The translations under genes and the position numbers were made by a program. A DNA stretch of 33,136 nucleotides from Bacteroidales bacterium (GTDB lineage: Bacteria; Bacteroidota; Bacteroidia; Bacteroidales; Bacteroidaceae). The notes under the pieces are model-generated. The model had not been told where the DNA came from, did not search any database, and saw only the letters and a program-made list of their open reading frames with translations. Location of the stretch: NCBI GenBank assembly GCA_030531335.1, contig JAUNNV010000005.1:1-33136 (forward strand), written 5' to 3'. Every line of letters begins with the position of its first letter. The first letter of the stretch is position 1. Below are positions 9,077 to 25,478 of the stretch, piece by piece.

Positions 9077-11512
9077 CTATTCGGTCTTGATGCTTTCCAT
9101 CGGATTCTTTGTGGCTACGTGCCAGCTTTGAACGACGACAGTGAGGAGAACAACCACACTGACAATGACGAATGCGAGAGGGAAGATCCACCAATAAATG
9201 GGCGTGTGCTCGGCAAAGTTCTGTAGCCATTGCTCGCTAAGGTAGTAACCTATTGGGGCAGCTATCGCGAAGGAAAGGATGAGTGGAAGTATGTAGCGGC
9301 GAGTGAAGAGTGACAACACCTCGCCCACGCTGCTGCTCATCACCTTGCGGATGGCAATTTCCTTACGACGACACTCCGTCTCGAACATTGTGAGGCAGAA
9401 GACTCCGATGAGGGTGATGAAGATGCAGATGAAGGCAAAGAGTTTGACCTGACCGATGAATCGGAACTCCTCTTCGTATGCTTTCTCCAAGCAATCATCC
9501 AGGAAGTAGAACGTGTGCTGCTTGTCGTGGCAAAGGCGGTCGAGCAGTTTTGCAGCATCCTGCTTTGCCTTGAGTTTGTCATAGCCTGCTTTTGTTCGGA
9601 TGAAGATCTTCTTGCAATCATCACTCCAGTATTCCATGCCTGTGCCATAGATGATGAAAGCCATATCCTTCTCGCTGCTGTTGACACGCATGGTTGTGAA
9701 TTGGAAGTCCTTGCACACACCCACCACGGGATAGGTGATGGGAACGTAACCAGAATTCAACTCTAATGGAGCCAATGGCTGGCCAATGTAGAAGTTCTTG
9801 TAGCGACGTGCCGACGATTCAGTTATGATGAAGGCACCATCCTTGTCCGAATCGTTGAAGTCGCGACCTTCCACCATCTCGATTCCCAATGTCTTCAGCA
9901 GATCCTTGTTGGCAGGCATCATGTAGAAGTATCGGCGAACACCTCCTTCGAAATTGCCTCCCCACTGCATGAAAACGTCGGCATCGCCAGGTTCAATCAT
10001 GCCATACGCCACACTTTCCACCCAAGGCAGTTGTTCCAGTTCCTTGTTCAGTACATCTTTCTTGCTCATGCCTTCAGTCGAAAGCATAGTGAAGAGGATT
10101 TCGTCTTTGTTGAATCCATAGTCTGACGAATAGATATGGCGTGTCTGGCACATCATCACACCGATGTAGAGAGTCAGCACGAAGCCAACCACCATCTGCA
10201 TGCATACCATCAGTGTGCGGAGCTGACGACCTTTTGGTGACAATCCGAATGCCCCCTTCAGTGCCAATGCAGGTGCAAATGATGTGGCAAACCAGGCTGG
10301 GTAAATTCCTGATAATACGCCAACCATCACTGCACCAGCAAAGGTAAGAGCACAAAGTTCCAGATGATCCGAGAAATCAACGTTTCCCGACATCAAGGAC
10401 ATGCAATCGTCATTGAGAGCGAACAACTTGACCCACAGTGTGCTAAGAAACAAGGCAACAACTGCAAGCACAACGCATTCTGCGACGAACTCCATGCGCA
10501 AACTGAGTGCAGAGGCTCCCATCACCTTGCGTGTATTGATGCTGCGGATGCGACTTGGTGCCTGAGCCAGAATAAAGTTGCTGTAGTTTAGCAATGCCAC
10601 AATGAGCACGAAGAGTGCCGACCAGAAGATGATAGTCACAAGATTTCTGTTGCCCTTGTCGTAGTGATTGACACCACTGAAATAGGTTTCATCCAAACAG
10701 TTTAGACGAATATCCATTCGCGTGTCTTTATTGAACTGCATCCAATCTGAAGAACCGTATTTCTCCATCAGCATCTTTCGCATAGATGCCTCGACTGACT
10801 CTTTGTTATCGGGAGAATCCAAACGAACATACGTAAGAAAGCTCCATGCTTGACCAGAATTAAAGCTTATGTTTTTCAATCCAAGATAGATTCCATCTTG
10901 AAGAAGGCAGTTTGCTGGCATATCTTCGGCAACACCAATGACCTCCAGTTCGCCCGGCCCAACCCCCCTCCCGACCACCTCTGAGGGGGAGGGGTTTGTG
11001 CCTACAGTTAGGCGTTTGGCTTGGGGAATGCTGAACGTCTTGCCCACAGCATCGGCAGTACCGAACAACTGTTCTGCAACACTTTTCGTTACAACAGCTT
11101 GTGTTCTTGTTGTATAGTGCGATGTGCCGTAAAGCATTTTTACGCCAAAGAAATCCAAGCCAGGATCGCCAATCTGCGTGGACATGATGTCGTCAAATTG
11201 GTTACCTCCGACATATACAGGAAATTTCCAATGCACCATATTGTCACTCACAACATCCTCAACGTGCGTCATCTCCTTTATGGTCAATTCGAATGTACGA
11301 ATCATGTAGCACGACCAATCAGCATTCGTAGTAAAACCACCCACCTCCACTCTATAGGTTCGTTCGTGGTCTTTGATGCTATGGTTGTACGTTCGATTGA
11401 ACTCCACCTGAGTAGCAAAGAGATAGAAGGCAGCCAATGCGATGCTCAACCCAAGAACGTTGAGGGCGTACGCCAATTTATGACTCCTTATTTGATATAA
11501 TAAACTTTTCAT
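9077..11512 (-). CDS. ABC transporter permease with two FtsX halves (MacB-like)
   Basis: An 811-residue inner-membrane protein made of two FtsX/MacB-type halves. TM helix near 13-33, a periplasmic MacB-PCD-like domain (about 40-285), three TM helices (about 290-415), then a second TM/periplasmic/three-TM set ending near 800. The loop ECRRKEIAIRKVMSSS is the coupling helix region of this family, and the end PMESIKTE matches that of the sister permease (PAESIKTE). With the adjacent ATPase, adaptor and TolC homologue it should form a tripartite pump that pushes a substrate from the periplasm outward. Residues about 171-190 (GTNPSPSEVVGRGVGPGELE) look like an insertion within a strand normally reading LTV-VIGVAEDMP. 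This insertion coincides with a palindromic DNA repeat. It is the last gene of the operon. Confidence 0.88.
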   Translation of the reverse strand: MKSLLYQIRSHKLAYALNVLGLSIALAAFYLFATQVEFNRTYNHSIKDHERTYRVEVGGFTTNADWSCYMIRTFELTIKEMTHVEDVVSDNMVHWKFPVYVGGNQFDDIMSTQIGDPGLDFFGVKMLYGTSHYTTRTQAVVTKSVAEQLFGTADAVGKTFSIPQAKRLTVGTNPSPSEVVGRGVGPGELEVIGVAEDMPANCLLQDGIYLGLKNISFNSGQAWSFLTYVRLDSPDNKESVEASMRKMLMEKYGSSDWMQFNKDTRMDIRLNCLDETYFSGVNHYDKGNRNLVTIIFWSALFVLIVALLNYSNFILAQAPSRIRSINTRKVMGASALSLRMEFVAECVVLAVVALFLSTLWVKLFALNDDCMSLMSGNVDFSDHLELCALTFAGAVMVGVLSGIYPAWFATSFAPALALKGAFGLSPKGRQLRTLMVCMQMVVGFVLTLYIGVMMCQTRHIYSSDYGFNKDEILFTMLSTEGMSKKDVLNKELEQLPWVESVAYGMIEPGDADVFMQWGGNFEGGVRRYFYMMPANKDLLKTLGIEMVEGRDFNDSDKDGAFIITESSARRYKNFYIGQPLAPLELNSGYVPITYPVVGVCKDFQFTTMRVNSSEKDMAFIIYGTGMEYWSDDCKKIFIRTKAGYDKLKAKQDAAKLLDRLCHDKQHTFYFLDDCLEKAYEEEFRFIGQVKLFAFICIFITLIGVFCLTMFETECRRKEIAIRKVMSSSVGEVLSLFTRRYILPLILSFAIAAPIGYYLSEQWLQNFAEHTPIYWWIFPLAFVIVSVVVLLTVVVQSWHVATKNPMESIKTE
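10943..11002 (-). repeat. In-frame palindromic repeat inside the permease gene
   Basis: About 60 bases (20 codons) interrupt the conserved strand RLTV...VIGVAEDMP. The core 10961-10996 is an inverted repeat in which AACCCCCCTCCC pairs with GGGAGGGGTT (two extra C on one arm), with a smaller inner hairpin (CCTC-A-GAGG). The high G+C and palindromic form differ from the surrounding coding DNA and resemble a REP-like element. The length is a multiple of three, so the frame is kept. Confidence 0.65.
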
Positions 11513-11516
11513 GTTG

Positions 11517-12191
11517 TCACAAAATTGTATTCTTGACTACCTCACCGTCAAAGAGATTGATGGTGCGATGGGCGTAGGTGGCATCGTGCTGGCTGTGCGT
11601 CACCATCACGATGGTGGTGCCCTCGGCATTGAGCTGTGAGAGCAGTTCCATCACCTCCAAGCCGTTCTTTGAGTCGAGGTTACCTGTTGGCTCATCGGCA
11701 AGAATAAGCTTTGGCTTACCTACAACGGCACGGGCAATAGCCACACGCTGTTGCTGACCGCCAGAGAGTTGCTGAGGATAGTGGGTGGCACGCTGGGAGA
11801 GGTTCACCTTGCGCAGAATATCCAGCACACGCTGCTTGCGCTCCGCCTTTGACACCTTGAGATACTTCAGTTGCAGGTCAACATTCTCCTCCACGGTCAG
11901 TTCGTCGATGAGGTTGAAGCTCTGGAACACGAAGCCGATGCGACCCTTGCGATACTTGGTGCGATCCTTCTCCTTGAGGTGTCCTACCTCTTCGCCTTCG
12001 AGAAAATAGTTGCCACTGTCTGGGTTGTCGAGCAATCCGAGGATGTTCAGGAGGGTTGACTTGCCACAACCCGAAGGTCCCATAATGGCCACGAACTCAC
12101 CTTCCTTTACTTCGAGGCTTACACCATTCAACGCTGTTGTCTCCACATTCTCTGTGCGGAATACCTTTGTGAGATTTTCAATCTTGATCAT
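11517..12191 (-). CDS. ABC transporter ATP-binding protein (MacB/LolD type)
   Basis: A 224-residue ATPase subunit that powers the two flanking FtsX permeases. Walker A is [11 protein letters not shown] (about residues 36-46). The Q-loop is in [17 protein letters not shown], the signature is [14 protein letters not shown], and Walker B with the catalytic Glu is LILADEPTG. The D-loop is NLDSKNG and the switch His lies in MVTHSQHDA. All elements are intact. Length and the [11 protein letters not shown] segment fit the MacB/LolD subgroup. It starts 25 bases after the upstream permease gene and ends 4 bases before the next, so all three should be co-translated. Confidence 0.95.
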
Positions 12192-12216: not shown

Positions 12217-14655
12217 TTATTCGGTTTTGATGCTTTCAGCCGGATTACTTGTTGCTACGATACGAACATAAATATCTGAGGTTATTGCAACTAATGCCAA
12301 TGTCAATACGAATGCCAGAGCGAACACCCACCATGGGAGACTGGCATGTATAATGAACTGTTGCTCCCATCGTTCTGCAGCTATGGCGGCCAGCACGCAT
12401 CCAACTATTGCAGATGGAACAGCTACCATCATAATATCCCTAATGAACATGAGGCGAATCTCCGAGAACATGGCTCCACTTATTCTTCGTATGGCAATTT
12501 CTTTGCTACGACGCTTTACTTCATCGATAGTGTATCCGATAAGACCGATAATGGCTATGAGCAACGTTACAATACCACCAATAAGAATGGTGTTGCGAAC
12601 ATTTAGAGTTTCCTTGAAGTCATCAAGACGCTGGTAGTTGAACGGCTTGACATCCATGTCTTTACCAGGAACAATCTTTTCTATCGCCTCCTTTGTCTTG
12701 CTTACAGATGTAGCAGTAAGATTGTGATACTTAATGATGATGTAAAAGAAGGCATTACATGATAGGTCGGGATCAAGATAGAATATTGCCATAGGTCTTG
12801 TTTCATAGAAAGCCTGTTCTCCCGCATAAAGACCTTGCGAAATAGATTCGAATACTCCTGCAATGACTGAGATACTCTTTCCATCGGAATGCTCAGTAAC
12901 GACAATCTCCTTACCAATAACATCATCCCATCCTGTGTTTGCTTTAAGCATTTCTTCGAACTTGGTGTCAATGAGTACTTCTTCGTCATAGGATTTATCC
13001 TCTGCGAAAGACTTTCCCTTGACAATCTTCACACCCATAACGTCAAACCAGTGAGAGTCATTCCAATAACCATCAGAGATATTAAACAATGCATCGCTGC
13101 TGCCAGGTAGTAGCACATTGTTGCCTGAATACTTGCCAAATGGATTTTGGTTGGAGAATGTGGCATCGGCGATGTCAGGCAGGGAGCGTATTTCGTCCAT
13201 GAGAGCCCTTTTCTGTGATGCGTTCAATCCCCCCAAATCCACGATGGCAGTATTGGTGCAGTCAAAACCAAGGTCAGTGGTCACAAGTTGATTGTACTGA
13301 AGGGTTATGATGCTTAGCAACACACCAAGAAATGCCACAGCAGAGAACTCCACAGCAAGGAGCACACGCTTCCATACTCTCTTGCCTGTAACATGGTTTC
13401 TGAAGACTGTTGCCACAGGAATTCTGTTGTACATTGCTGCAGGAATAACGGAATTGAGTATGAATACGAACAAAACGACAATAGCAGCAATAAACAGAGG
13501 TTTTCCTGTAAACAAATCTGATACAGACGTTCCTGAAAGAGTTTCAACCGTGCCTCTTGAAGCATAGATTAGGGTTATGGCAATGATGCATGCAACAATG
13601 GTATGCACTAGTGACTCAGCCGTCATCATGCTGTACATGTCGAGGGTATCGCTACCCATACATTTGCGTAACGCCATTTCACGGCTTCTGCTTACGGTAT
13701 TGGAAATCACGACAAGCAGATAATTTAAGACAGAGGTCAGCAAAAGTGCCAATGCAACAAAAGTGAGAACCAACATCATATTTCTTGAGTTGGAATTCTT
13801 ACTATGGAACTCTTCATACGGATGTACAGCAAAATGTATTTCCAATCCTGCATTCAGCATCTCTTCGCGAGGTATGTAACGAGCGATGAATCCGCTCATT
13901 CCCTTATTGATTTGCTCTGCTGTAGATCTGTCCGCAAGTTTTATCAATGAAGAGTAACGGTCATTGCCTACAACCCCATCCGACTTGTCAACCATGCCAT
14001 ATAAGCTGATACTTGGAAGAGAAACTACAATATCCGGTCGATAGCTTGTATTTGCAGGATAGTCCTCATATACTCCAGAAATAGTAACAGCAACCCCATT
14101 CGCATCATCTTCAAGTGTGAAGACCTTTCCCGTTATCTGTTCGGCGGCACTAATAGGATTGCTGATTCCTGATAGTTTCATTGCCATCGACGATGAGATA
14201 ACAGCATTTGCTTTCACTCCCAGAGGTTCAACAAGACTTCCTGCCAAGCACTTTCGGTCAAGTATCTTGAAGAAACAAGAATCAGCAAGTATCACACGTT
14301 CCACACTTGCCTTGCGGTCGCTGTTTTGTATGTTCACCTTAGTGTCGCTCGAAAGATATGTCCATCTCGATGCCTCTTCTATGCCAGGAAAATATGTTTT
14401 CATCAGTGGAGCAATGCCGCCAGGAGTCTTTTCATGACTCTGCTCCTGATTGTTAATCACAGCACTCTCTGTGATGTAGAAGATTCTTTCTGAATCGTCA
14501 AAGCAACTATCGTATGTCTGCTCAAAACATACTTTGGTAAGAAGAACCAAGCTCACAGCAAGGCCCAATCCTAACGAGATAATCTTGATGCCATTCCTGC
14601 GACCTTTGGCAGGGAGTGCCTTTATGGCTGCTAAAATGTAATTGATAAAGTCCAT
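12217..14655 (-). CDS. ABC transporter permease with two FtsX halves (MacB-like)
   Basis: An 812-residue inner-membrane protein with the same 8-TM, two-periplasmic-domain build as the permease at 9077-11512. TM helix near 22-42, periplasmic domain about 45-280, three TM helices about 285-420, then a second half with TM helices near 430, 690, 735 and 780. The coupling-loop motif VKRRSKEIAIRRISGA and the PAESIKTE end are present. The two permeases have the same length but low apparent identity, so they probably form a heterodimer around one pair of ATPases. It lies 14 bases after the adaptor gene. The substrate is unknown. Confidence 0.88.
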   Translation of the reverse strand: MDFINYILAAIKALPAKGRRNGIKIISLGLGLAVSLVLLTKVCFEQTYDSCFDDSERIFYITESAVINNQEQSHEKTPGGIAPLMKTYFPGIEEASRWTYLSSDTKVNIQNSDRKASVERVILADSCFFKILDRKCLAGSLVEPLGVKANAVISSSMAMKLSGISNPISAAEQITGKVFTLEDDANGVAVTISGVYEDYPANTSYRPDIVVSLPSISLYGMVDKSDGVVGNDRYSSLIKLADRSTAEQINKGMSGFIARYIPREEMLNAGLEIHFAVHPYEEFHSKNSNSRNMMLVLTFVALALLLTSVLNYLLVVISNTVSRSREMALRKCMGSDTLDMYSMMTAESLVHTIVACIIAITLIYASRGTVETLSGTSVSDLFTGKPLFIAAIVVLFVFILNSVIPAAMYNRIPVATVFRNHVTGKRVWKRVLLAVEFSAVAFLGVLLSIITLQYNQLVTTDLGFDCTNTAIVDLGGLNASQKRALMDEIRSLPDIADATFSNQNPFGKYSGNNVLLPGSSDALFNISDGYWNDSHWFDVMGVKIVKGKSFAEDKSYDEEVLIDTKFEEMLKANTGWDDVIGKEIVVTEHSDGKSISVIAGVFESISQGLYAGEQAFYETRPMAIFYLDPDLSCNAFFYIIIKYHNLTATSVSKTKEAIEKIVPGKDMDVKPFNYQRLDDFKETLNVRNTILIGGIVTLLIAIIGLIGYTIDEVKRRSKEIAIRRISGAMFSEIRLMFIRDIMMVAVPSAIVGCVLAAIAAERWEQQFIIHASLPWWVFALAFVLTLALVAITSDIYVRIVATSNPAESIKTE

Positions 14656-14669
14656 ATTTGTTGTTTATC

Positions 14670-15920
14670 TTATTTCAATTTCAATACTTCATTGTCTTTA
14701 AATGCCTCGTATCCACTGGTGATGACGCGCTCGCCTGGTTCCAGTCCTTCCTCCACCTCGTAATGCTGAGGGTTCTGGCGACCGATGCGGATGTTGCGGC
14801 GGTATGCCTTGCTGCCACTTTTGTCGAGTACGAATATCCAATTGCCCCCTGTGGTTTGGAAGAAGGTACCCTTCTGGATGAGAACGGCTTGGGTTGGTTT
14901 GCCTAATTCGAGGTTTAGGTAATAGGTTTGGCCGGAGCGGATGTTGTCTGGACGAGTTCCTGTAAAGACCAAGTCCGTGCGGAACTTACCTTGTCGCACC
15001 TCTGGATAAACCTTGCGCACAGTGAGGTTGTAGGTCTTGCCATCGCGCTCGAAGGTGGCAGAGAGACCTGCCTTGATGCGGTCGATGTAGTGTTCGTCAA
15101 TCTGTGCCTCTATCTTGAAGTCGCTCAGGTCGTTGATCTGTCCTATCTTTTGCCCCGCTGTGATACTCTGACCAAGTTCCACGTCAAGCAGCCCTAACTC
15201 TCCGTCGATGGCAGAACGCACCTCAAGTTTGCCTTTGCGGTCGCGCACCAGCACTACATTGCGTCGCATGTTGGCAAGGTTGTCCTCCATCTGCTCCATT
15301 TGTATGTCGCGGTACTGGGCATCTTTCTTCAGTCGTTCACCGATGAGTGTCTGCTTCTTTTGGGAGAGCTCGTATTCCTCCTTGGCTTGAAGGTATGTCT
15401 CTTTGGATATTAGCTTTTCCTTGTAGAGGCGTTCGTTCTGCTCGAAGGCTCTATGCTTACGCTCCACGTCCATGTTGAGCGTTGCCTGTTCCGTTTCGTT
15501 GTTCAGTTTGTCCTGTTGCATCGCTACCTGCGTGTTGCGCAGCAGGTTCTGCTTTTCTGCCAGTTCTGCCTCGGCATTGAGAATCTGCAGGTCGAGGTTA
15601 CTGTTGGAGAGACGGATGATGACATCACCCTTCTTCACGGCTTGCCCTTCCTCTGCCACCTTCTCCATCACGATGCCGCCCTCTTCGGGAGAGATATGCA
15701 CCACCTGGATAGGGATGACCGTACCGTTGAGACGTACGTAGTCCTTAAACTCTCCTCGCGTGACATTGCTGATGGTCACGTCCTCAGCATCTACCTGCAT
15801 CGTGCTCTGATGGTTGCCGAAGAAGATCCACAGCAATACAATCAATACGAACGCGCCTCCTGCCATATAGGGAATGTGCTTCTTCTGTAGGCCGCGTTTC
15901 TTCTCTATTATTCTGTCCAC
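14670..15920 (-). CDS. HlyD/MacA-family periplasmic adaptor
   Basis: A 416-residue membrane-fusion protein. Residues 17-35 form the single membrane anchor after a basic cytoplasmic start (KKRGLQKKH). A lipoyl-like half-motif (GTVIPIQVVHISPEEGGIVMEKVAEEGQAVKKGDVIIRL) is followed by a long coiled-coil hairpin (about 110-235, rich in Glu, Gln, Lys and Leu). The second lipoyl half (AIDGELGLLDVELGQSITAGQKIGQI) and beta-barrel and membrane-proximal domains run to the C-terminus (ITSGYEAFKDNEVLKLK). It joins the inner-membrane ABC permeases to the TolC-type channel. It starts 36 bases after that channel's gene, in the same operon. Confidence 0.92.
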   Translation of the reverse strand: MDRIIEKKRGLQKKHIPYMAGGAFVLIVLLWIFFGNHQSTMQVDAEDVTISNVTRGEFKDYVRLNGTVIPIQVVHISPEEGGIVMEKVAEEGQAVKKGDVIIRLSNSNLDLQILNAEAELAEKQNLLRNTQVAMQQDKLNNETEQATLNMDVERKHRAFEQNERLYKEKLISKETYLQAKEEYELSQKKQTLIGERLKKDAQYRDIQMEQMEDNLANMRRNVVLVRDRKGKLEVRSAIDGELGLLDVELGQSITAGQKIGQINDLSDFKIEAQIDEHYIDRIKAGLSATFERDGKTYNLTVRKVYPEVRQGKFRTDLVFTGTRPDNIRSGQTYYLNLELGKPTQAVLIQKGTFFQTTGGNWIFVLDKSGSKAYRRNIRIGRQNPQHYEVEEGLEPGERVITSGYEAFKDNEVLKLK

Positions 15921-15956: not shown

Positions 15957-17276
15957 CTAATACTCAATGAGTGGTGTGCCTTTGTAATAATTCAACATGC
16001 GTGTTTTGTAGATGTATGTAAGCTGGCATTGCAGCAACTGGACTTTGCTCTGTAGAAGTGTGACCGTCTGTGTCTGCACATCGATGGACGATGCCAGCCC
16101 TTCCTCGTACTTACGGATGGTGAGGTGCGTCGCAAGGCTGTCGGATTTCACCTTTGCCGTCATCTTCTCGGTTTCCTTGCGGCTGTTCTCCTGATCCGCG
16201 ATGGCTTCCTGAATCAGTCGTTGCAGTTCGCTGTTGCGATATGCCAGTTCCTCTTCAGCTCTTTTGACGTTGTTTCGCTGGCGGCGAATGTTGGCCAGTG
16301 TGCTGAGTCGGTTGAATATCGGGATGGAGAGCGAGGCAAACACATACCGACCGGCATTGTTTCGGAACTGCTCATCGAAGCTTGTCACGTTCGGCACGTT
16401 CAACTGCTTGTAGTATGTGGTGGAAATGCCTGCGCCCAGGGAGATTGAGGGGTACAAGGCTCCTTTGCTGGAGCGGTAGGCATATTTGGCTGACTGTAGG
16501 CTGTATTCTGCCTGCTTGATTTCTGGATTGGAAAGTCTCGCTTTTCCAAAAACATCTGCCTCCTCAGTATCTGCCAGCTCCAAAGTTTCTTCACTGTATT
16601 CCGCAATCTCAAGAGCGCCATCAATCGGGTAATTCATCAGCTGCTTCAGCGACAGCATGGCATTTTCATAGAGACTATGCTGGTGTGTCACCTCAAAGTC
16701 ATCGGTGGCGTATGTTGCTTGCATCTGAGCCACGTCGGCTTCTCCCTTTTGTCCAACCTCTGCCATGACCTTTGTCTGGCGAAGGAGCATCTCGCTCTCG
16801 GCCCTCTTTTGGGTGGCAAGGTCTATACATCCTTTATAATACAGCGCCATCACGTAGGTTTCCAGCACCTTCTGGGCTGTGGCATCTTTCTGCGCCATCA
16901 GCTGACTCTTGCCCATCAGCACATTCGCCTTGGCGGCACGCAAATTGTTGTAGCGTTGGAATCCATCGAACACAGGAATGCCGGCATTCAGCCCATACGA
17001 ATTGTAGAATGTGCTGACGTTGGTGTAGGTGTTTGTCTCTGGGTCAATGGCACGGCCAAAGTTGTACTGCCCTCCAATTGAGCCCTCTGCAGCTGGGAGG
17101 AAAGAACCAATAACCCTTACCTTCTCTGCCTTGTAGTCATCAAGCGCAATGTCCTGCAGTCGCACCTCATGATTGTGCGCGACAGCATACTGCATGCACC
17201 TGTCAACCGTCCATGGCTTTTGAGCGTACCCCTCCAGACAGGTCATGAAAAGCAATATGTACGTGAGCCTATTCAT
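15957..17276 (-). CDS. TolC-family outer-membrane efflux protein
   Basis: A 439-residue outer-membrane factor with a signal peptide (about 1-18, ending YAQ) and two repeated TolC-type halves of long amphipathic helices. The segment GGQYNFGRAIDPETNTYTNVSTFYNSYGLNAGIPVFDGFQRYNNLRAAKANV is the first beta-strand pair and helix. The corresponding second half contains GAGISTTYYKQ and YVFASLSIPIFNRLSTLANIRRQRNNV. It should form the trimeric exit duct for the pump encoded downstream. It is the first gene of the exporter operon, with a well-formed promoter and upstream operator-like repeats in the 374-base divergent region. Confidence 0.93.
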   Translation of the reverse strand: MNRLTYILLFMTCLEGYAQKPWTVDRCMQYAVAHNHEVRLQDIALDDYKAEKVRVIGSFLPAAEGSIGGQYNFGRAIDPETNTYTNVSTFYNSYGLNAGIPVFDGFQRYNNLRAAKANVLMGKSQLMAQKDATAQKVLETYVMALYYKGCIDLATQKRAESEMLLRQTKVMAEVGQKGEADVAQMQATYATDDFEVTHQHSLYENAMLSLKQLMNYPIDGALEIAEYSEETLELADTEEADVFGKARLSNPEIKQAEYSLQSAKYAYRSSKGALYPSISLGAGISTTYYKQLNVPNVTSFDEQFRNNAGRYVFASLSIPIFNRLSTLANIRRQRNNVKRAEEELAYRNSELQRLIQEAIADQENSRKETEKMTAKVKSDSLATHLTIRKYEEGLASSIDVQTQTVTLLQSKVQLLQCQLTYIYKTRMLNYYKGTPLIEY

Positions 17277-17316: not shown

Positions 17317-17346
17317 CAAAATTACCGTCAAGGTCACAAGTGACAA
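17317..17346 (-). promoter_or_regulatory. Promoter of the exporter operon
   Basis: On the minus strand TTG (17346-17344) and TAATTTTG (17324-17317) are 19 bases apart. This fits the Bacteroidota primary-sigma promoter. The predicted start near 17310 gives a leader of about 35 bases before the TolC-family gene. Confidence 0.75.
17333..17344. promoter_or_regulatory. 12-bp palindrome within the exporter promoter
   Basis: GTCAC-AA-GTGAC is an inverted repeat with perfect 5-bp arms, lying in the spacer and touching the -33 TTG of the exporter promoter. The position is typical of a repressor site. No candidate protein can be named from this window. Confidence 0.4.
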
Positions 17347-17373
17347 TGGATTCTTATCTCTCCAGCGTAAGAT

Positions 17374-17414
17374 TGTATTAAAACAATACACCTTTCTGTA
17401 TTAAAACAATACAC
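17374..17414. promoter_or_regulatory. Tandem palindromic operator sites upstream of the exporter operon
   Basis: TGTATTAAAACAATACAC occurs twice without change (17374-17391 and 17397-17414), separated by CTTTC. Each copy contains the inverted repeat GTATT-N5-AATAC. The centres are 23 bp apart, about 72 and 95 bases upstream of the predicted exporter transcription start. This is where an activator dimer pair would sit. The neighbouring Fis-type response regulator is the obvious candidate binder, by inference from position. Confidence 0.65.
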
Positions 17415-17562
17415 TTTCGGTTTGGAGGTGTCTAAAAATCGGCTTTTTGTGCACAAATAAGTTCATCCTAACATTGCCAAATGCCACATCAATATCGCGC
17501 CAAATGTACCATCGGATTAAGTAAAATGGTTGCTTTGGGTGACAAAAATCGTTAATAAACGC

Positions 17563-17621: not shown

Positions 17622-17784
17622 CACCAAAATCAGATTTAGGCCTTACTGCAATGCTTATAGGCAGAGACAAAGAAAAAATGACACTTCAGAATGCTCTTTC
17701 GGAAGAGTACTCTCAATTTATTGCCGTATATGGCAGACGTCGTGTAGGCAAGACTTTCCTTGTTCGTGAGGCGTACGATTATAA

Positions 17785-17947
17785 ATTCGCTTCGCAGATT
17801 TTCTTCCTCACCTCAGCAGACCACAAGCAAGCTTGGGCTCTGCGTTCGGTTCGTCGAAAATTCGCTTTGCAGATTTTCTTCCTCACCTCAGCAGACCACA
17901 AGCAAGCTTGGGCTCTGCGTTCGGTTCGTCGAAAATTCGCTTTGCAG
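17785..17947 (+). repeat. 75-bp tandem repeat, two full copies plus a 13-bp third start
   Basis: Units 17785-17859 and 17860-17934 differ at one base (GCTTCGCAG versus GCTTTGCAG). The first 13 bases recur at 17935-17947 before normal gene sequence resumes. Each unit has a central imperfect hairpin (CAGACCACAAGC with GCTTGGGCTCTG). The 150 bases are a multiple of three and sit between KFA and LQFAG of the ATPase, as a repeat inserted with a short flanking duplication would. Confidence 0.85.
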
Positions 17948-18108
17948 TTTGCTGGTGCTGCCAAACAGACTGCGAGGAAACAGCTGGTTCGTTTCCGTAG
18001 GGCATTGAAGGAACATGGTCAGAAAGATGCTCCCGAACTGACGAACTGGGGGGATGCTTTCAGTGAACTGAGGCGTTTTGTCGTCAATCTGCCTGAAGTC
18101 ATGGATTC

Positions 18109-18143
18109 CCATTCGACAGGCTCAGGGCAAGCCGGCTCACCAA
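18109..18143 (+). repeat. REP-like dispersed repeat inside the broken ATPase gene
   Basis: The core ATTCGACAGGCTCAGGGC (18111-18128) followed by AAGCCGGCTCACC is a sequence type I recognise as a short dispersed repeat in many bacterial genomes. It is translated as STGSGQAG on one strand and CPEPVE on the other. It lies in a part of the gene where intact relatives have only a short variable linker before the Walker B strand. Confidence 0.6.
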
Positions 18144-18399
18144 CCAAGAAGGTTGTGTTCCTTGACGAACTTCCCCGGATGGATGCGCCACGTTCTGGCT
18201 TCCTGTCTGAGATAGGGTCGTTCGGGGGAATGGGTGGGCATCCTCGCGATGAGGATATTGTCTTTGTCGCATGCGGTAGTAGTGATGACAATGGCGCTTT
18301 CACCGATATTCTATTGCCACAGAAGGGTTGGTGCATAACGAACATTGGGGTGAGGTGCGGGCGGAAATACAGTTGAACGATTCATACGAGCTTTAAGCC

Positions 18400-18921
18400 A
18401 TGGCAAACTACGGAACCATACTTGTTGTGGACGACAACACGTCCATCTTCACTACTCTGGAGATATGCTTGGATGGGGTCTTCGAGCGCATTCTTTCCCT
18501 TACCAAACCGGAGAACATCCTGACTACTCTTGAACAGGTGGCGGTTGACATCATTCTGCTCGACATGAACTTCTCTCTTGGGGTGAACAATGGCCACGAA
18601 GGATTGATGTGGGTGCAGGCTGTTCACCGCAGGCACCCGGATATCCCTATCGTGCTGATGACGGCATACGCAGATGTGAAACTGGCTGTCAAGGGCTTGA
18701 AGAGTGGCGCTGTGGATTTCGTCGTGAAACCATGGGACAACCACGAGCTGATCCGTGTGCTCAAGGACGCCATTGATGCCAATACGGAGGTTGTTCCATT
18801 GGAGAGGATGGAAGAGGAGCATGTGCGCAAGGTGGTGGATAAGTGTCACGGCAATATCAGCAAGGCTGCCGAACTGCTTGAGATCTCACGTCAACGGTTA
18901 TACAAAAAGTTGGGCAAATGA
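18400..18921 (+). CDS. Response regulator: receiver plus Fis-type HTH, no AAA+ domain
   Basis: A 173-residue regulator. Residues 5-120 form a receiver with Asp11/Asp12, phospho-acceptor Asp55 (IILLDMNFS), Thr88 (LMTAYADV) and Lys110 (VVKPWDN). Residues about 133-173 (LERMEEEHVRKVVDKCHGNISKAAELLEISRQRLYKKLG) are a Fis-family helix-turn-helix, the C-terminal end of NtrC-type activators. The receiver sequence also resembles that of Bacteroidota sigma54-dependent regulators linked to MacB-like pumps. The central sigma54 AAA+ ATPase module of about 240 residues is absent. It probably controls the divergent exporter operon. The ATG at 18400 follows a weak ribosome site and comes 23 bases after the broken ATPase frame ends. 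Its stop overlaps the kinase start (ATGA). Confidence 0.88.
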   Translation: MANYGTILVVDDNTSIFTTLEICLDGVFERILSLTKPENILTTLEQVAVDIILLDMNFSLGVNNGHEGLMWVQAVHRRHPDIPIVLMTAYADVKLAVKGLKSGAVDFVVKPWDNHELIRVLKDAIDANTEVVPLERMEEEHVRKVVDKCHGNISKAAELLEISRQRLYKKLGK

Positions 18922-19772
18922 CAACAGTTGTAGTCTTGGTCGTCGTCATCGTTTTCGTTGGCATGGCCTTCTTCTTTCATCATCAGAACAGATTGAAATT
19001 GCGTGCCCGACTGATGCGCGAGGCTGTCAGGAATCACGAATTCACCTTCCATCTGCCTGTCAGAGGTTTGTTTTATGGCGAAAGAGCATTGCAGGAGGCC
19101 CTGAACGGTCTCGGGCAGGACATCAACAAACTGGTGGCTCAGAAGGAAGTGGAGTCATGGCAGAAGCTCACGCGCGTGCTTACACATGAGATAATGAATG
19201 TGTGCACTCCCATCCAGAGTATCAGTCAGGCCTATCTTGAGCATCCCAAGGTCGTAGGCACATCGTTGGAGAAAGGCATCCATGCCATCAATGAGGCAGC
19301 CGGCAATCTGGTGGCCTTTGTGGTTGGCTATCGCAAGCTTACCCAACTTCAGGAGCCTGTCATCGCTTCCCTGCAACTGAAATGTCTCGTCGCAAGCATC
19401 ATGGCCTTATACCCCAATGTGGCTTGGAAGGTCGATATTCCAGAAGATACTGTCGTCAATACCGACGAGTCTCTCCTGCGTCAGGTTCTTGGCAACATCA
19501 TTAAGAATGCCATGGAAGCCGATGCCCAAATCGTGGAATGTGCTTGGAGGGAATCTGCTCTTCGCATCAGCAATAATGGCACACCGATTCCCGCGGAAGT
19601 CAGAAGAGACATCTTCGTCCCATTCTACACCACCAAATCTACAGGAACCGGAATAGGCCTTGCGTTGTCCCGACAAATCATGGCTATGTTGGGCGGTTCG
19701 CTTGAACTAACGGGAAAAGCCGATAGCGGTTATCACGTCACCTTTGTGTTGGACTTGGGACAAAACAAATAG
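18918..19772 (+). CDS. Sensor histidine kinase without a sensing domain
   Basis: A 284-residue kinase, partner of the upstream response regulator (4-base ATGA overlap). One TM helix (about residues 3-20) anchors it, followed by a short linker and a helical region. The dimerisation/phospho-acceptor helix has His90 in VLTHEIMN. The ATP-binding domain has an N box (NIIKNAMEA) and a G2 box (GTGIGLALSRQIM). The G1 box is diverged (ISNNGTPIP where DxGxGI is usual). No periplasmic loop or PAS/HAMP domain is visible, so it must sense through the membrane helix, through the pump components, or through a partner. It converges with the phosphoesterase gene, 30 bases away. Confidence 0.88.
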   Translation: MTTVVVLVVVIVFVGMAFFFHHQNRLKLRARLMREAVRNHEFTFHLPVRGLFYGERALQEALNGLGQDINKLVAQKEVESWQKLTRVLTHEIMNVCTPIQSISQAYLEHPKVVGTSLEKGIHAINEAAGNLVAFVVGYRKLTQLQEPVIASLQLKCLVASIMALYPNVAWKVDIPEDTVVNTDESLLRQVLGNIIKNAMEADAQIVECAWRESALRISNNGTPIPAEVRRDIFVPFYTTKSTGTGIGLALSRQIMAMLGGSLELTGKADSGYHVTFVLDLGQNK

Positions 19773-24825: not shown

Positions 24826-25452
24826 TTAGAACCAGTTGTCATCGACAACAGTCGGAGTGTTCTGGATTGGCTCCACCGTTACGACGGTGTCGGGCTTCAG
24901 GTCATCGGCCTCCACTCCTCCATTTCCTATACATAGCGTCAGGTATGAGTCGCGCGCGATGTTGTCACCCGAATGTAGCAGACGGCCATTGTGTTTTATG
25001 CCATACACCCAGTCGCGCTCGCCCGGCACCATTTCAGGCGCATTCAGCTTGAACCCCATCGAGCGTAGTTTGGCTTCGGCCTGCCGGAATGAGCTGTTGT
25101 CTATCAAGTCGGGGATGATGAGTGTCGGTATGGTTCCGGTGTTGATGGTCAAATAAACCATGCGCCCTTCCTTGACCTTTGAGGCTCCTTCTGGAATCTG
25201 TTCCAGCACGGCTCCTGCCGGCATACCCCTCACGTAGGTGGAATCGATGACTTGTGACTTGAGCAGTTGCTTGCCGAGTTCGTTCATGGCTTGCTCCATG
25301 GGCAGCCCCTTGACATTGGGCACCGTCACCGTCTCGCCGTGACGTGTGTATGAATCCATCCATAGCAAAGCAGTGTATGCCGTAGCCGCGACAAAAAGAA
25401 CGATGGCTACAAGGTTCCAGAACAGCAGTCTTATAGAATGTAGTATTTTCAT
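24826..25452 (-). CDS. PASTA-domain membrane protein
   Basis: A 208-residue protein with an N-terminal TM helix (about residues 9-31) and two PASTA domains outside the inner membrane. The first is about 41-107 (VTVPNVKGLPMEQAMNEL...VLEQIPEGASKVKEGRMVYLTIN) and the second about 110-176 (IPDLIDNSSFRQAEAKLRSMGF). PASTA modules bind peptidoglycan fragments or beta-lactams in kinases and PBPs. This free-standing form without a kinase or PBP domain is common in Bacteroidota and sits before rluD and ddl, fitting a cell-wall role. It ends in an acidic Thr/Val-rich tail. The ATG at 25452 is preferred because it starts the TM segment and follows the promoter at 25479-25509. Confidence 0.87.
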   Translation of the reverse strand: MKILHSIRLLFWNLVAIVLFVAATAYTALLWMDSYTRHGETVTVPNVKGLPMEQAMNELGKQLLKSQVIDSTYVRGMPAGAVLEQIPEGASKVKEGRMVYLTINTGTIPTLIIPDLIDNSSFRQAEAKLRSMGFKLNAPEMVPGERDWVYGIKHNGRLLHSGDNIARDSYLTLCIGNGGVEADDLKPDTVVTVEPIQNTPTVVDDNWF

Positions 25453-25478
25453 AATACACCATATTATGGATTTGGCTG

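Follow-up and report, generated by a model that had tools for sequence, protein, structure and literature searches.

Paired palindromes as a predicted operator of a short Fis-type response regulator at a Bacteroidales efflux pump operon

Two 17-bp palindromes located 23 bp apart upstream of a TolC-HlyD-FtsX-ABC-FtsX exporter operon very likely form a two-dimer operator of the short response regulator encoded nearby, which probably activates the exporter from upstream once phosphorylated. This reading is derived from comparative sequence analysis of a Bacteroidales stretch of 33,136 nucleotides, referred to here as the window, and of related loci. It provides a predicted operator and promoter geometry for two-component-controlled pumps of gut and rumen Bacteroidales.

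The paired sites and their genetic context

An earlier note on this DNA had described two identical palindrome-containing sites 23 bp apart. Exact copies of TGTATTAAAACAATACAC were indeed found at 17374-17391 and 17397-17414, with an expected chance number of 0. Within the window no further match to this 18-mer was detected at up to 3 mismatches, and none occurred in 100 shuffles. The repeated unit proper is a palindrome of 17 bp, TGTATT-N5-AATACA, which is present twice with a start-to-start distance of 23 bp. This corresponds to approximately 2.2 helical turns rather than to the exact two turns assumed in the earlier note, whose spacing was correct. The core GTATT-N5-AATAC given there lies inside the palindrome, the fuller core across loci being TGTATK-N5-MATACA. 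Both sites are upstream of the exporter as described, but the distances of 72 and 95 bases had to be replaced: the palindrome centres are at about -69 and -92, because the exporter-strand -7 box TAATTTTG is located at 17324-17317. The features discussed below are the following.

9077-11512, minus strand: second MacB_PCD/FtsX permease (Pfam)
11517-12191, minus strand: ABC transporter ATPase (Pfam ABC_tran)
12217-14655, minus strand: MacB_PCD/FtsX permease (Pfam)
14670-15920, minus strand: HlyD-type membrane fusion protein (Pfam HlyD_3)
15957-17276, minus strand: TolC-type outer membrane efflux protein, exporter gene 1 (Pfam OEP, 1.8e-41)
17317-17324, minus strand: predicted -7 box TAATTTTG of the exporter promoter (consensus TAnnTTTG; the G of the box lies 65 bp from the proximal palindrome centre)
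17344-17349, minus strand: predicted -33-like element CCATTG of the exporter promoter (weakly conserved columns -35 to -31)
17374-17390, no strand: exporter-proximal 17-bp palindrome TGTATTAAAACAATACA (centre 17382, about -69; exact match and column-wise conservation)
17397-17413, no strand: exporter-distal 17-bp palindrome TGTATTAAAACAATACA (centre 17405, about -92; exact match and 23-bp spacing)
17651-18376, plus strand: truncated AAA ATPase gene between operator and response regulator gene (weak ATPase_2/AAA matches)
18400-18921, plus strand: response regulator with receiver and Fis-type HTH (Pfam Response_reg 7-121, HTH_8 134-173), AAA+ absent
18918-19772, plus strand: histidine kinase partner (Pfam HATPase_c; H-box LTHEIMN; one N-terminal membrane helix)

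The draft genome to which the window belongs (2.3 Mb, 83% complete) contains seven TGTAT-N7-ATACA sites, of which only the two at 17374-17413 pair up. A single GTATT-N5-AATAC at 25443-25457, near the start of a PASTA-domain gene, is isolated and occurs at about the chance number, and on these grounds it was rejected as a third operator site.

The response regulator of the window comprises 173 aa, and its receiver (5.9e-18) is joined straight to the HTH_8 domain (1.8e-9). Receiver residues D11, D12 and D55 are present, the recognition helix reads ISRQRLYKK, and the best solved relatives of the receiver are 2qr3 and NtrC receivers. The protein has the receiver and the Fis-type HTH of the NtrC family and lacks the central AAA+ domain (GAFTGA) and a sigma-54 (-24/-12) target promoter. 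In its partner kinase and in those of relatives, a single membrane helix was found and no recognised sensor domain, which suggests that the signal may arrive through the membrane or from the pump itself.

As a consensus-based prediction, which also applies to all other -33/-7 and start assignments reported here, the exporter promoter of the window fits the sigma-ABfr-type class of Bacteroidales. The consensus of this class is TAnnTTTG at -7 and TTTG at -33 (PMC7366714). The -7 box TAATTTTG agrees with it, while CCATTG matches the -33 element only partially. A sigma-54 box with up to 2 mismatches was absent at the equivalent place of this promoter.

The AAA ATPase gene at 17651-18376 is missing from most orthologous loci, in which the operator adjoins the response regulator gene. 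It plays no part in the operator mechanism, although its insertion probably cut the regulator gene of the window off from its own operator. The encoded protein has the Walker A motif GRRRVGKT, and about 75 bp of the gene are directly duplicated within it. A different kind of ATPase occupies the same spot between operator and regulator gene in locus L005 (3500-5000), and the apparent last 24 or so codons of an ATPase of that kind were seen just before the regulator gene in the intergenic regions of L002-L004, L006 and L007. In sequence terms this interval looks like an insertion hotspot for ATPase genes with later deletion. Short repeats like GCCAAATGCCACATCAATATC are present at about 17475-17512, and similar ones were noticed close to the insertions in L005 and L008; they are possibly linked to the ATPase genes.

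Conservation of the pair and its distance to the exporter promoter

Scanning one genome per species in 84,980 species for the response regulator yielded 68 loci, and a second set of 399 genomes of the family contributed short and full-length forms. The earlier note had named absence of the motif from orthologous divergent regions as evidence against its proposal; instead, nearly every orthologous or paralogous locus retains the pair. In close orthologues it lies in the same 23-bp register between the divergent TolC and regulator genes. In nearly all Bacteroidales relatives it is found upstream of the regulator gene, even where the exporter begins with ABC or FtsX genes. The general pattern consists of two 17-bp palindromes of the form TGT-N11-ACA, each with G-N13-C and an A/T centre, with centres 23 bp apart.

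Since the loci were mostly collected through the regulator and their sequences are related, the following counts, like those further below, are not independent and are inflated: in an unbiased search for repeated 17-bp palindromes upstream of the regulator at spacings of 17-45, the best spacing was 23 bp in 85 of 115 loci; this spacing was found in 68 of 85 full upstream regions of short regulators compared with 7 of 255 shuffled controls; a score of at least 24 was reached by 59 of these 85 upstream regions and by 2 of the 255 controls; and among the scored pairs of short regulators, 74 of 75 had the 23-bp spacing. In 72 aligned promoters the G and C edges (+/-7 of each centre) are conserved to 100% and enclose an A/T core. 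The ungapped logo of these promoters displays the two palindromes, the proximal one flanked by ATC, as well as the -7 box and a weak -33 element; the stretches between them show little conservation. For a few regulators (e.g. L104, L118, L120, L127, L128 and L131) no recognisable pair was found. An order-wide search with the exact pattern matched two genomes only, owing to sparse sampling within families and to variation of the arms.

The pair is also fixed relative to the exporter promoter. Of 73 non-redundant loci, 65, among them the window, have a TAnnTTTG -7 box that ends 64-66 bp from the exporter-side centre, and most of the remaining loci carry a near-variant of the box at the same position. 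This distance is kept although the first exporter gene may encode a TolC, HlyD, ABC or FtsX protein. It still amounts to 65, 65, 66 and 66 bp in the window, L005, L017 and L080, respectively, in all of which inserted genes separate the operator from the regulator gene. On the regulator side the distances are variable. They cluster at about 25, 48, 54-55, 63-65, 75-77 and 86-88 bp and are phased at 10.5 bp (Rayleigh R 0.75; p about 4e-4 when distinct distances are counted once). With a fixed distance on one side, helix-phased distances on the other and an operator that stays with the exporter, the constraint is on the exporter promoter as target, whereas the regulator promoter is a secondary target that depends on phase.

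When 70 genomes were searched in reverse for pairs, allowing up to 2 mismatches, 27 of the 50 that carry the response regulator contained them, compared with 1 of the 20 that lack it. The sole exception (G403) turned out to be an unrelated tandem repeat, and most regulator-bearing genomes without a matching pair have TGTC-type arms. Many regulator-bearing genomes have extra pairs elsewhere, most of which precede FtsX/MacB permeases or outer-membrane efflux genes and have the -7 box at 65. The pair marks a regulon, as it recurs at an identical distance in other pump operons of these genomes. One pattern, i.e. two 17-bp palindromes 23 bp apart and 65 bp from a -7 box, can thus be used to read pump regulons from genomes. 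The regulon may extend beyond pumps, since genes for a thioredoxin-like secreted protein and an M60 peptidase (L158 3160 and L167 3075) are likewise preceded by a pair and, 65 bp from it, a -7 box.

Proposed mode of action and identity of the binder

In the mechanism that we propose, one regulator dimer would occupy each 17-bp palindrome, with the HTH helices touching the TGT/ACA edges on both sides of the A/T-rich centre. Relative to the TolC-HlyD-FtsX-ABC-FtsX promoter, the two dimers would be positioned at -69 and -92, with about 2.2 helical turns between them. Phosphorylated by its kinase partner, the regulator would most likely activate the housekeeping-type -33/-7 promoter from upstream by contacting RNA polymerase; such a class-I-like contact is proposed because the protein has no AAA+ motor for sigma-54. 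We infer activation rather than repression from the operator position and from the sigma-54 relatives, and phosphorylation dependence is likewise presumed. In relatives without an insertion, the pair also lies on the correct DNA face for the promoter of the regulator gene itself, which would permit autoregulation. In the window this link was probably severed by the inserted ATPase gene. A pump switch of this kind may help to explain bile or antibiotic tolerance.

The main rival is that the response regulator binds the pair as a repressor of the exporter and is released by phosphorylation or by an inducing compound. Divergent operators of pump regulators often are repressor sites, and in one group of relatives the regulator-side palindrome is 24-25 bp from the -7 box of the regulator gene and overlaps its -33 region, as would suit autorepression. 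Nevertheless, a location at -69 and -92, well upstream of the polymerase footprint and at a single fixed distance, is typical of upstream activators. Moreover, the full-length relatives combine the same kind of sites with sigma-54 promoters, which are obligately activator-dependent. Repression of the exporter is therefore regarded as unlikely.

Much less probable still is that the pair serves as the site of another regulator (MerR, TetR, Fur/PerR-like or a nucleoid protein) while the response regulator acts elsewhere. Palindromes of this size would suit many dimeric regulators, but the response regulator and its kinase are the only regulatory genes seen to be shared by the loci, whatever the exporter, and the 20 searched genomes without the regulator are devoid of pairs except for the unrelated tandem repeat. 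In addition, the arms vary with the helix class of the regulator and the geometry is of the Fis type: the window-type operator is a dimeric palindrome with G-N13-C and an A/T-rich centre. Helix ISRQRLY goes with TGTATT arms in the window clade, ITRQTLY followed by A, K or S with TGTATG, and ISRQTLYN with TGTC(C/T)A, whereas ITRQTLYN is mixed. That the arm sequence follows the recognition-helix residues indicates the response regulator as the binder. An unrooted receiver-domain tree, restricted to short and full-length forms of Bacteroidales, places the TGTC/ISRQT group (L030-L109) within TGTATG/ITRQT relatives, and the window clade likewise, so that arms and helix appear to have changed together. 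In a tree-based contrast test of helix against arms the direction was mostly as expected, with 1-5 independent contrasts on well-supported branches, which is too few for significance. The association provides a testable code for Fis-type HTH regulators. The regulator at 18400-18921, already named as likely binder in the earlier note, is thus the predicted protein to bind the pair, in agreement with the fixed 65 bp, the pair staying with the exporter and the helix covariation.

There is a negligible probability that the repeats have no operator role and stem from mobile or repetitive DNA, from duplication by chance or from a pair of transcribed RNA hairpins: the 18-bp duplication is exact and its neighborhood is an apparent hotspot for ATPase gene insertion, but the comparative data contradict it in that palindromy, the 23-bp register and the 65-bp promoter distance are kept across diverged sequences while the exact duplication is not, and the pair, being upstream of both predicted promoters in relatives, would be in neither primary transcript. 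At L155 (G403:C53) and G501:C147 the operator pattern is mimicked by a 23-bp tandem repeat, TGTATCTCACCCATACATGTGTT, to which it is unrelated. The reading as a mobile or satellite repeat applies to these pattern hits, not to the window, for which it was rejected.

Sigma-54 relatives and comparison with known systems

Palindrome pairs, chiefly TGTC-N9-GACA and with a spacing of 21-23 bp, also occur at the loci of full-length relatives of about 450 aa (NtrC-type proteins that contain AAA+). Among the 21 full-length loci in which a pair was found, 10 show a sigma-54 box TGGCAC-N5-TTGC (up to 2 mismatches) on the divergent side, beginning 62-64 bp from the centre; the non-divergent side has none. 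In five more full-length loci TGGCACG is found at this position, but the second half of the box is weaker. No sigma-54 box was found at that position for the short forms. The gene divergent from the full-length regulator looks like a TolC-type channel by sequence. The full-length side of these findings agrees with a published survey of sigma-54, in which ABC antimicrobial-peptide permeases (COG0577) of Bacteroidia are predicted to have sigma-54 promoters (PMC12316311). The earlier note had proposed a new operator for this class of pump; an operator of pump operons is indeed conserved, and it belongs to a wider class, NtrC-type sigma-54 regulators included.

In the receiver tree, short and full-length forms constitute two groups, except for one sequence of 342 aa that probably is a truncated full-length form. 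On this unrooted tree we consider it likeliest that the short clade lost the AAA+ domain and exchanged the promoter class while the operator was retained. With moderate confidence the course can be drawn further: an NtrC-type sigma-54 activator would have lost its AAA+ domain, kept the paired operator with its 22-23-bp register and acquired -33/-7 pump promoters at a new fixed distance, after which the arms would have diverged together with three helix positions, leaving a natural series for the Fis-type recognition code. Loss of rpoN as the cause of the short regulator was rejected, as sigma-54 is present in 80 of 80 genomes tested, that of the window included. Side by side, the two forms offer a tractable example of how a regulator may pass from sigma-54 to the housekeeping polymerase and still retain its binding site.

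The Bacteroidales pump regulators of the NtrC family (REC-AAA+-HTH_8) share with the window regulator the receiver and HTH families, the divergent exporter gene and the paired 17-bp palindromes. They differ in the AAA+ domain, which the window regulator lacks, in the promoter (TGGCAC-N5-TTGC at 62-64 bp versus a -7 box at 65 bp) and in the arms (TGTCYA versus TGTATT). In the papers searched, all four operator sequences looked for were absent, and nothing specific on REC-HTH_8/exporter operators in Bacteroides was retrieved.

The two-domain architecture (REC and HTH_8, no AAA+) is that of the PrrA/RegA/ActR type, and the solved response regulator 3rqi matches the window protein over residues 7-173, nearly its whole length. 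In the searches made, however, the window receiver was nearest to Bacteroidales NtrC-type proteins. The operator and target of the PrrA/RegA/ActR redox regulators are also unlike those of the window regulator, whose target is a pump operon.

The pair resembles motif PM2 of B. thetaiotaomicron, a near-palindromic promoter motif at -10/-30 of 75 genes (PMC7366714), in being near-palindromic and located in Bacteroidales promoters. Identity with PM2 was rejected, given that the pair is found at -69/-92 with a separate -7 box and once or a few times per genome. Sites of Fis, the nucleoid protein of E. coli, are 15 bp long with G-N13-C and an A/T-rich centre, and an arginine contacts the edge guanine (PMC3711457). 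The operator is alike in G-N13-C and A/T centre, with invariant G/C edges. Fis sites are highly degenerate, whereas the sites described here have specific arms and come in pairs of fixed spacing. A move of NtrC-type proteins from sigma-54 to sigma-70 promoters is likewise represented by NtrC of Rhodobacter capsulatus and Caulobacter, enhancer-binding proteins that act at sigma-70 promoters (PMC10274813). These proteins keep the AAA+ domain and have lost only the GAFTGA loop, whereas the window regulator is without the whole domain.
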